Shown: in pieces, positions 47,839 through 52,080 of the stretch
Numbering within the stretch: the first letter of the stretch is position 1
Layout of the letters: each line of letters begins with the position of its first letter
DNA from: Verrucomicrobiota bacterium
GTDB lineage: Bacteria; Verrucomicrobiota; Verrucomicrobiia; Verrucomicrobiales; DEV007
NCBI GenBank assembly: GCA_963205275.1
Contig: CAUJIH010000006.1
Span: 1 to 64,000 of the forward strand
Direction of reading: 5' to 3'
Length of the DNA stretch: 64,000 nt
Translations under genes and position numbers: made by a program
Notes under the pieces: model-generated
Database searches by the model: none
Seen by the model: the letters and a program-made list of their open reading frames with translations, nothing else
Told to the model about the DNA's origin: nothing

Positions 47839-50460
47839 GTGGCTAACGATTTTGAGCAGATTCAATTTGGTGCCTCCGGCAATGACGGAGCCTCCCCGCG
47901 TCGTGCGTCGAAGCGGAAGAAGAAGGCTTCGAAGGGGCGTCGTCGGCTGATGTTTCTCGTGAAACTTCTGGGATTCTTTACCGTCCTCGGATTCGTCTGC
48001 CTGATTGTCGCCGCTGTAGGAGCCTTTTTTTACGTGAAGCCTCGCTATGACTTGGCTCAGACTTTTGACCTCTCTCAGTTGGAAGAAATCGAAGTAGCCA
48101 GCCGGATTTTTGATCGTAGCGGAAAAGAATTGGGACGAATCTTCGTGCAAAACCGACGTCCGGTTTCTCTGGATCACGTCTCCCCCAATTTCGTTCACGC
48201 ACTGCTTTCGGCTGAGGATAGTCGATTCTACCAACACCACGGGGTTGATTATTTCGGGATAGCTCGTGCCGTATATTACGGCCTGCGGTCAAGTGGAGTC
48301 AATCAGGGGGCTTCCACAATCACTCAGCAGCTCGCTCGTCAGACTTTTGAACTAAAAGACCGAACTCTCAGTCGGAAGATCACTGAAATCTTCCTAGCTC
48401 AGCGAATTGAAAAACGAATCGGGAGCAAGCAGCGGATTCTCGAACTCTACATCAATCGTATATACTTCGGCAGCGGATATTACGGAATCGCAGCTGCATC
48501 CGAGGGCTACTTTGGGAAAGAACCCGAGTACCTGACCGCACTAGAGGCGGCAACACTCGCTGCGACCATTCCCAATCCGTATCACCGCTCGCCTCGAAGC
48601 TTTCCAGAAGTCTCTAAAAAATGGCGCAACCACGTTCTCGCACGGATGGCTGAGCAAAAATACATCGATGCAGGCACAAGTGAGCGACTGCAAAAGGCGA
48701 ATGTTGAAGTCGCCGAAAAAGCGAATCTCACTGGACGATCCGCCTTCGTCTATGAAAAGGTCCGACAAGAAGTGATCGACCTCTTGGGATACGAGGCTGT
48801 CTCCAAGGGTGGATTCATGATCCACACTACGATCGATGGGGCACTGCAGGAGATGGCAGAGGCCACGTTGAAAGAACAACTCGCCAAGATCGAGCAGCAT
48901 CCGGACTTTAAGCACGAGACCCTAGAAGGTTATAAAAAAGCGAAGGCTGAGTTCCTGAAGTCCGCACATCCCGACCAGACATTTCCGACACCGAAATATC
49001 TTCAAGGAGCCTTGTTGATGCTCGACAACAAGACAGGTGAGGTGCTCGCCCGAGTCAGCGGACGCGATTTTAACGACTCTATGTTTGATCGCGTGTCTCA
49101 AGGTCGACGTCCCACGGGCACAGCCTTTACCCCGTTCGTGTACGCCGCTGCTTTCGAGGCGGGGTACTTCCCTGGCACGCTCGTAGACGACACCCCTATG
49201 GACACGCGCCAAGTCATGGTGGGAGGCACGACGGGGATTCTGGGAGAATGGGGAGTCGAAACACTCAATAACGTGTACGAGAATGTCATTACCTCTCGGC
49301 GAGCCCTCGCTCAGGGGAAAAATGCAGCCACCGTTCGACTAGGGCAGAAAGTGGGAACGGATGCAGTCGTCGCCCTAGCTAAGAAAGCAGGCATGTCCTT
49401 CGGCGGTGACTTGCAGAAATTCAATGCCACTTTCCTTGGTCGCAATCCCTGCTCCCTAGAGGAACTCTGTCTCGCCTACACGATTTTCCCGAACGGTGGA
49501 CGCCGCGCTGAAAAGGCGAATATCATCGTAAACATCCGCGATAGCCTCGGCAACGTCGTCTATTCCCCGAATGCGGCGATGCACCAGCAGCAGGTGATCG
49601 ATCAGTACACTGCCTATCAGATCACCAACATGCTCTCGGACAGTTTTGTCGACGGCACCGCTGCTAAGGCTCGGGAGAAATTCGGATTGGGCAGCTACCC
49701 CGTCGCCGGGAAGACAGGAACGGAATACGACTTTACCGATAACTGGTTCGCTGGTTACACCTCAGAGGTAACCTGTGTGGTATGGACTGGCTTTGACCAG
49801 AGCAGCACCATCTATCCCGGAGCATTCAGTTCTGACACCGTGCTCCCTGTCTGGACAGAGGTGATGAACGCCGCAGAAAAGAAATACGGTGCGAAGGTAT
49901 TTCCTCCGCCGAACGATGCCGAGAAGGCAGAGATCTGTCTCAAATCCGGAGAACTGGCCTCTGACGACTGCTACGAAATGGTCCAGAAAAAAGAAGGAAT
50001 CACCTCTCAGGTTCGCTGCACCTATACCGAATACCTTCGCCCCGGCACCAATCTCGATCTGATCTGTCATATACACGGCAAGGGCCGCAGCCGACTGCAG
50101 AACGTCGTGAAGCAGGGTCGTAACGGAATGATCGTCCCCGATTTTGTCATTCAAGAGAACGCCGAACCCGTCTTTCCTATCGCTCAGACCGTGATCGGCA
50201 CCTACGATCCCTATAATTCCGTACCTGTCGTGATCCAGGCGAAAGCGACTCCGGTAGCGAAGAAACCTATCGTTGCACAGCCAGTAGAATCTGACGACTC
50301 GTCCGATTCTCCACAGGATGAACCAGCGCAAAAGCGTCCTAGCGATCCCATCGCTATACCTGTCGCCAAACCGATCCTCACCGATACAGGTACAACGGAT
50401 GATCCTCCCGCCGAGCAGCGCGTGCAGCTCCCCCGCCCGCGTGCGATCGAGATCGAATAA
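47839..50460 (+). CDS. class A penicillin-binding protein with degenerate transpeptidase site
   Basis: 873 residues from GTG 47839, which follows CAGAACCTTTCT and leaves 45 bp to the divergent start; an ATG at 47728 would overlap that gene. After a basic segment and one transmembrane helix (about 37-65) the GT51 domain is intact: AEDSRFYQHHGVD (catalytic Glu near 126), GASTITQQLARQ, KITEIFLAQRIEKR, ILELYINRIYFG. The transpeptidase domain keeps KTGTE (from K625), but the SxxK motif is T428-A-F-T431 and the SxN motif is G493-K-N495. Both nucleophile and general base are therefore missing. It likely polymerises glycan strands only (inference). The C-terminal 120 residues are a Pro-rich tail. Confidence 0.9.
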   Translation: MANDFEQIQFGASGNDGASPRRASKRKKKASKGRRRLMFLVKLLGFFTVLGFVCLIVAAVGAFFYVKPRYDLAQTFDLSQLEEIEVASRIFDRSGKELGRIFVQNRRPVSLDHVSPNFVHALLSAEDSRFYQHHGVDYFGIARAVYYGLRSSGVNQGASTITQQLARQTFELKDRTLSRKITEIFLAQRIEKRIGSKQRILELYINRIYFGSGYYGIAAASEGYFGKEPEYLTALEAATLAATIPNPYHRSPRSFPEVSKKWRNHVLARMAEQKYIDAGTSERLQKANVEVAEKANLTGRSAFVYEKVRQEVIDLLGYEAVSKGGFMIHTTIDGALQEMAEATLKEQLAKIEQHPDFKHETLEGYKKAKAEFLKSAHPDQTFPTPKYLQGALLMLDNKTGEVLARVSGRDFNDSMFDRVSQGRRPTGTAFTPFVYAAAFEAGYFPGTLVDDTPMDTRQVMVGGTTGILGEWGVETLNNVYENVITSRRALAQGKNAATVRLGQKVGTDAVVALAKKAGMSFGGDLQKFNATFLGRNPCSLEELCLAYTIFPNGGRRAEKANIIVNIRDSLGNVVYSPNAAMHQQQVIDQYTAYQITNMLSDSFVDGTAAKAREKFGLGSYPVAGKTGTEYDFTDNWFAGYTSEVTCVVWTGFDQSSTIYPGAFSSDTVLPVWTEVMNAAEKKYGAKVFPPPNDAEKAEICLKSGELASDDCYEMVQKKEGITSQVRCTYTEYLRPGTNLDLICHIHGKGRSRLQNVVKQGRNGMIVPDFVIQENAEPVFPIAQTVIGTYDPYNSVPVVIQAKATPVAKKPIVAQPVESDDSSDSPQDEPAQKRPSDPIAIPVAKPILTDTGTTDDPPAEQRVQLPRPRAIEIE

Positions 50461-51591: not shown

Positions 51592-52080
51592 ATGCCTTTC
51601 CTCGCTGTCTTCAAACGCTACGAAGTGTGGCTGCTGTTTTTGCTGATCGCAGGCCTTTTCTGGCTGGCCTTTACACCCTCTCCAGTCACAGAGCTGACCC
51701 TCTCTGGTGGGAAAGTAGTGAAAGAAGATCCAAAATCAGCTTCCACGGACAATCCTGCAACGAACGATCCTAGTGAACCGAAACCGAACATTGTGCTCAA
51801 AGACGTTCACGTCGAGAAGTCACCTGGAGGGCAGATCGTCGAGACTCGGCTCGAGGGCATCTCGCCCACCGGGAGCGATTTGAATCTGGACAGCAGTGTC
51901 GTGCAGGCGATCAGCGACGACGGCAACAGAATCCCACTCTTCTTTGAACCGTTTCAGAAGGACGCCATTCTCACCGCCCACGAAAATCGCACCGTGACTT
52001 TACGCTGGTGGATGGTGAAGCCGAAGAAAAACTTCACCCTGATGCTTGCCGGAGTAGAAATTCCGGTCGATCTGCCCTGA
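51592..52080 (+). CDS. membrane-anchored hypothetical protein
   Basis: 162 residues. A single N-terminal helix (about 11-27, WLLFLLIAGLFWLAF) is followed by a Lys/Asp/Pro-rich linker and a small beta-rich domain (about 65-162) that starts NIVLKDVHVEK and ends TLMLAGVEIPVDLP. I do not recognise a family. It starts 6 bp after the MlaD-like gene and ends 13 bp before coaX, so it is co-transcribed and might work with the MCE protein. Confidence 0.75.
   Translation: MPFLAVFKRYEVWLLFLLIAGLFWLAFTPSPVTELTLSGGKVVKEDPKSASTDNPATNDPSEPKPNIVLKDVHVEKSPGGQIVETRLEGISPTGSDLNLDSSVVQAISDDGNRIPLFFEPFQKDAILTAHENRTVTLRWWMVKPKKNFTLMLAGVEIPVDLP

Follow-up and report, generated by a model that had tools for sequence, protein, structure and literature searches.

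A verrucomicrobial class A penicillin-binding protein with an intact glycosyltransferase domain and a degenerate, probably non-catalytic transpeptidase domain

The class A penicillin-binding protein (PBP) encoded at positions 47839..50460 of the window (the whole stretch of 64,000 nucleotides from a Verrucomicrobiota bacterium analysed here) is probably a glycosyltransferase (GT) whose transpeptidase (TP) domain is non-catalytic and likely blind to β-lactams, crosslinking being left to partner transpeptidases. Class A PBPs are regarded as obligate bifunctional enzymes and as targets of β-lactams, penicillin attacking their crosslinking (transpeptidase) half. A preliminary description of the sequence had proposed a dead TP domain beside an intact GT; judged by the motifs, there are good grounds for this in the window protein, but not in all orthologues, because some retain Thr, Lys, SxN, and KTGT, and three carry a full SxxK.

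The gene lies on the forward strand (as do all features of the protein given below), starts with GTG, and encodes 873 amino acids, for which both Pfam and a structural model indicate a class A PBP: an N-terminal membrane anchor precedes a GT51 domain with its motifs and a C-terminal PF00905 fold. The anchor (residues 25-75; 47911..48063) is a helix in the model and a hydrophobic stretch in the sequence. The GT51 domain (residues 96-270; 48124..48648) matched Pfam Transgly (PF00912) with 1.8e-56, and its catalytic motifs were all present, as previously described: EDSRFYQHHG at 126, GASTITQQ at 157, RKITEIFLA at 179, KQRILELYINRIYFG at 197-211, and RNHVLARM at 263. The TP-fold domain (residues 388-680; 49000..49878) matched Pfam Transpeptidase (PF00905) over residues 390-642 (2.3e-19; 70.1 bits against a cut-off of 22.1). 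It is followed by a C-terminal β subdomain with conserved C700, C711, C743, and H746 (49888..50076). Scores of the window protein fell below the cut-offs of both NCBIfam PBP_1a_fam (TIGR02074; 470.9 bits, cut-off 508.75) and the monofunctional GT family MtgA (TIGR02070; 136.4, cut-off 182.65), and, beyond the latter family, a TP-fold domain is present.

The SxxK acylation tetrad is absent from its expected site. In its place stands T428-A-F-T431 (49120..49131; T428 = ACA, T431 = ACC), so that both the nucleophile serine and the general-base lysine are replaced by threonine. The SxN motif is degraded to G493-K-N495 (49315..49323), and the third motif, K625-T-G-T628, is kept as KTGTE (49711..49722); the preliminary description was correct in each of these particulars. 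The residues flanking the first motif, RP-G-[T/S]-A-F-x-PFVYA, matched those of the genome's own canonical paralogues (GSVFK, GSTFK, and GSTLK) residue for residue and without gaps, which makes the alignment at positions 428-431 unambiguous. No S..K tetrad was found elsewhere in the TP region, the sole SxxK string of the protein being SKRK at residue 24, near the N-terminus.

To delimit the family, 237 genomes of the class Verrucomicrobiae were searched with a profile built from 27 orthologues. Full-length orthologues were found in 83 of them, each scoring at least 816 bits over the whole profile; the next matches were paralogues at 704 bits or less, which leaves a clean gap. Within the window's own order, 44 of 45 genomes carried a full-length member. 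No member outside the class was found among 193 genomes of the phylum, where the best non-class match (∼198 bits) covered part of the GT domain. On a tree of 137 rows, the family formed a single clade of 103 rows, separate from the canonical SxxK clade, and its sister was a small clade that also lacks the SxxK lysine; a mixture-model tree of 63 rows had the same layout. One genome with an orthologue (G047; motifs GTAILP, SKI, and VKTGT) could be assigned to Akkermansia because its M60 protease matches AM0627 of A. muciniphila (7SCI/7YX8; PMC9325726) almost residue for residue; two other M60 proteases of Akkermansia-type genomes gave no match at the strict threshold. As far as sequences can tell, the family is an old branch of the class A PBPs that has been passed down vertically and is restricted to Verrucomicrobiae, the gut microbe Akkermansia included. 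A horizontal origin was considered and rejected, as the tree largely tracks the families of the class and a divergent methyltransferase neighbour is shared. Separately, two loci of the same order (L186, from an Akkermansia-type genome, and L188) encode further class A PBP-like proteins of ∼570-610 amino acids with intact GT51 motifs and almost erased TP motifs (GDLFT and GAAFE, without SxN or KTG).

The methyltransferase neighbour is a Methyltransf_28 gene (PF02636; 46630..47793, reverse strand), which appears MidA/NDUFAF7-like and whose ATG lies 45 bp from the start of the PBP gene. It stands divergently beside the orthologue in the window's own genus and in families f1, f2 (some members), f4, and f6 of the order, and beside it elsewhere in the class (f14, f28, and part of f44), also next to a serine-bearing orthologue (L078); no such neighbour was seen for the orthologues of the Akkermansia-type genus or of several further families. 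Its retention by a large part of the family speaks for orthology and for descent by vertical inheritance, without any functional link being claimed. Downstream of the PBP gene follow genes for MlaD/MCE, an unknown protein, type III pantothenate kinase, and a ROK-like kinase; the reading frame between the first and third of these (51592-52080; 162 amino acids) had no Pfam match. A scan for promoters and terminators yielded nothing above chance.

Conservation was counted over 102 readable, non-redundant family rows, with positions ranked by entropy over 270 TP columns. Residue 428 was threonine in 99 rows, which exceeds what chance would give, and serine in three (rank 21), and residue 431 was lysine in 33, threonine in 31, leucine in 22, and something else in 16 (rank 196), the non-lysine residues across lineages including M, L, F, I, V, and more. 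One orthologous gene thus comprises three classes of first motif: SxxK (3 members), TxxK (30), and Txx followed by another residue (T, L, M, F, and more; 69). Positions 625, 627, and 628 of the KTGT motif ranked between 16 and 25 (K in 100/102, G in 99/102, and T628 in 99/102). In the 14 canonical paralogues, positions 428, 431, 493, 495, and 625-628 were all invariant. Between the first and second motifs, the family has a loop of its own, G462-x-x-x-G-I-L-G-E-W-G-x-E474 (49222..49260), in which G466, G469, E470, and E474 were invariant in all 102 rows; these residues are absent from the canonical clade, which has P473 and N475 at this site. Nearly all catalytic positions of the GT51 domain were invariant as well (E126, D127, S159, Q164, R179, K180, E183, K197, and N206). 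Read across the alignment, constraint has been lifted from the general base but kept on the nucleophile-site hydroxyl, on the KTGT strand, and on the family-specific loop.

If close relatives had SxxK at this position, the substitutions of the window protein could be put down to sequencing error. This is not the case: among 33 congeneric genomes searched, 32 were readable at codon 428 (one was masked), and all 32 encoded threonine, none serine. Codon 431 encoded lysine in most congeners (TxxK), including the nearest sister of the window species, methionine in at least four species of the window's subclade, and threonine in the window species; S493G was common to this subclade and a few other congeners. 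The preliminary description had suggested checking whether the three substitutions are shared by a clade. The exchange of serine for threonine is family-wide, S493G characterizes only a subset, and loss of lysine is recurrent and, in the window species, recent. The three changes are accordingly of different apparent age, Ser to Thr being old and general, S493G intermediate, and loss of lysine recent here, yet recurrent elsewhere. On the tree, the presence of lysine changed at least 10 times and serine/threonine four times. Two serine-bearing members (L155 and L161; genus g124, family f44) are nested inside the threonine clade, and a tree uniting all threonine-bearing members in one clade was rejected (AU p 2.4e-6); placing L078 outside all other members was not rejected by the AU test (p 0.07). 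Either threonine arose early and serine returned later in one lineage, or serine was replaced repeatedly; the first course would take fewer steps. L155 and L161, with full SxxK within a TxxK clade, present an apparent return from threonine to serine at the catalytic nucleophile.

Thr428 shows much stronger conservation than would be expected of a nucleophile that had merely been given up, so its hydroxyl may still do chemistry. Threonine could be an alternative nucleophile with which at least the TxxK members transpeptidate slowly, or on a special substrate, insensitive to β-lactams, only the lysine-less lineages (the window species included) being silent. The near-invariance of the residue, with serine as the sole alternative (99/102), fits this proposal, and so does the retention of SxN in 29 of the 33 lysine-bearing members compared with 15 of the 69 lysine-less ones. 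Serine, moreover, reappears only in backgrounds that bear lysine and SxN: L078, L155, and L161 have lysine, SxN, and KTGT. These same numbers (33/102 with lysine, 29 of them with SxN, and three with full SxxK) count against a dead TP domain throughout the family, and the nesting of L155 and L161 in the threonine clade suggests that transpeptidase function may have been regained or kept in these members. However, lysine changed at least 10 times while threonine stayed unchanged, so nothing downstream depends on lysine; the association of lysine with SxN was without power once kinship was controlled, there being too few informative pairs for a phylogenetically corrected test; the established PBP mechanism needs both serine and lysine; and no native threonine-type PBP was found in the literature searched. 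A threonine nucleophile is thus unlikely. Equally improbable, in our estimate, is its extension, according to which the TxxK members would be a threonine-nucleophile, β-lactam-insensitive offshoot of the SxxK superfamily, and the window lineage would have lost even that activity, its TP domain becoming a stem-peptide receptor that controls its own GT.

It might also be argued that the TP domain is a remnant in decay and that only the GT domain matters, given that positions 431, 493, and 495 are variable and that some members have lost more (SxI in Akkermansia; W-G in place of K-T in L099 of the sister clade). Yet the frames are open and full-length across the class, the loop residues G466, G469, E470, and E474 are invariant, KTGT is kept, and the fold is predicted with high confidence. 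In recent pairs (NG86, dS 0.05-0.6) of the Akkermansia-type TxxL lineage, dN/dS of the TP domain was 0.01-0.10, far below 1 and near the values of the GT domain; in some divergent pairs, which are saturated and have an unreliable dS, the ratio rose to 0.3-0.5. The TP domain is under purifying selection even after loss of lysine, and, with its catalytic residues gone, it is a putative pseudoenzyme domain maintained across species. Neutral decay is therefore quite improbable, and the earlier view of a well-conserved domain rather than a random pseudogene holds.

An AlphaFold2 model of the window protein, computed from 27 sequences, predicts the normal TP fold of PBP1a/1b, with pLDDT mostly 90-98 in the TP domain and VIA Z 40-44 against PBP1a and PBP1b structures; the tail from residue 751 is disordered in the model. 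Among PDB entries, 7u4h is titled PBP1A from Chlamydia trachomatis, and its source may be mislabelled; chlamydial genera are listed among bacteria without class A PBPs (PMC8406291). The loop at 451-480 is modelled less confidently (block pLDDT about 68-85). Its glutamates E470 and E474 never vary within the family and do not occur in canonical paralogues, which might recommend the idea that another residue of the cleft, for example in the GILGEWGxE loop, serves as a new base for a reaction not of the penicillin type; no structural or biochemical sign of such chemistry was seen, the loop belongs to the less confident part of the model, and we consider the idea very improbable. An artefact of sequencing, binning, or assembly in a single metagenome-assembled genome, for which the draft state of the window genome (109 contigs) might speak, is refuted for Thr428, which all readable congeners share and which also occurs in finished genomes of a single contig, and has next to no probability overall, as the loss of lysine (T431 in the window species) is paralleled by methionine in four sister species and by other residues elsewhere.

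Under the preferred reading, a GT with a non-catalytic TP domain, the membrane-anchored GT51 polymerase would make glycan strands from lipid II. The TP domain would retain its fold and most of its substrate cleft, including KTGT and a hydroxyl at the nucleophile position, but should be unable to form an acyl-enzyme because the nucleophile serine is threonine and the general-base lysine is lost. It would work non-catalytically, most likely by receiving or positioning stem peptides of the nascent strand, or else by docking partner proteins. Crosslinks would be made by separate transpeptidases, whether of class B or of class A with intact SxxK, and the window protein is expected to be a poor β-lactam target. 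There are precedents: PBP1A and PBP1B still polymerise lipid II when the catalytic serine is mutated, glycan made by a class A PBP with a mutationally inactivated TPase is crosslinked by pneumococcal class B PBPs (PMC4632607), and division continues in C. difficile when the TPase of PBP1 is dead (PMC12539705).

Candidate partners are encoded in the window genome. Of its nine TP-fold proteins, four are class B PBPs in which SxxK and KTGT are intact, three are class A PBPs that have SxxK, and one is the window protein. The ninth is a second degenerate class A PBP, with the motif GSSFL (C6, about 69.7-71.6 kb), whose gene overlaps the stop codon of an intact class B PBP gene; the pair (L217:3529-7604, equal to C6 about 67.5-71.6 kb) lies just outside the window. 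This second protein belongs to the lysine-less sister clade, which has members in the window genome, L004, L100, L105, L106, and L099, all with an intact GT. Their first motifs read GSSFL, GSAFF, GSAIF, and GSAFI, or GTAFL in L099, the only one in which serine is not kept. In five of five genomes checked (the window genome and four others), the sister-clade gene immediately follows a class B PBP gene, and the adjoining class B PBPs of the four further genomes have STFK, SCN, and KTGT where readable. By its gene order, the locus looks like a split GT-plus-TP pair in operon form. Thus, in the neighbouring clade, a GT-competent, TP-degenerate class A PBP is repeatedly paired with a separate transpeptidase.

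Automated annotation relying on Pfam family matches would still label the family bifunctional, and models of the wall and lists of β-lactam targets for these bacteria are therefore probably wrong. The family amounts to a natural experiment on the roles of a TP domain besides crosslinking and on the division of labour between GT and TP activities in different proteins; the graded series of SxxK, TxxK, and Txx-other within one orthologous gene makes the question directly testable.

Compared with the bifunctional PBP1a and PBP1b (A. baumannii PBP1a, 3udf; E. coli PBP1b, 3vma), the window protein is alike in domain order, GT51 motifs, TP fold, and KTG, but has TxxT for SxxK, GKN for SxN, and the extra GILGEWGxE loop. 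Class A PBPs of Verrucomicrobium spinosum have been annotated as multimodular transpeptidase-transglycosylases; the available portion of the source lists three of them on the strength of annotation alone and says nothing of absent TP motifs (PMC4803751). Like the monofunctional MtgA/SgtB (TIGR02070), the window protein would be a GT51 polymerase without crosslinking of its own; unlike them, it retains a full TP-fold domain. The sister clade likewise consists of class A PBPs without the SxxK lysine and with intact GT; in contrast to the window family, it keeps serine (except in L099) and adjoins an upstream class B PBP gene. The functional state proposed here, GT intact and TP inactivated, is that of engineered TPase-dead proteins, namely, S510 mutants of E. 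coli PBP1B, S. pneumoniae PBP2a, and C. difficile PBP1 S487A; in such TPase-dead class A PBPs, glycan synthesis goes on and partner PBPs can crosslink (PMC4632607, PMC12539705). In the open-licence literature, no natural class A PBP with a dead TP domain was found, the cases described being laboratory mutants only; a natural, class-wide example therefore appears to be new, although an earlier report may have gone unnoticed. Whereas the engineered proteins are products of the laboratory, the window family arose in nature, long enough ago to extend through the class.
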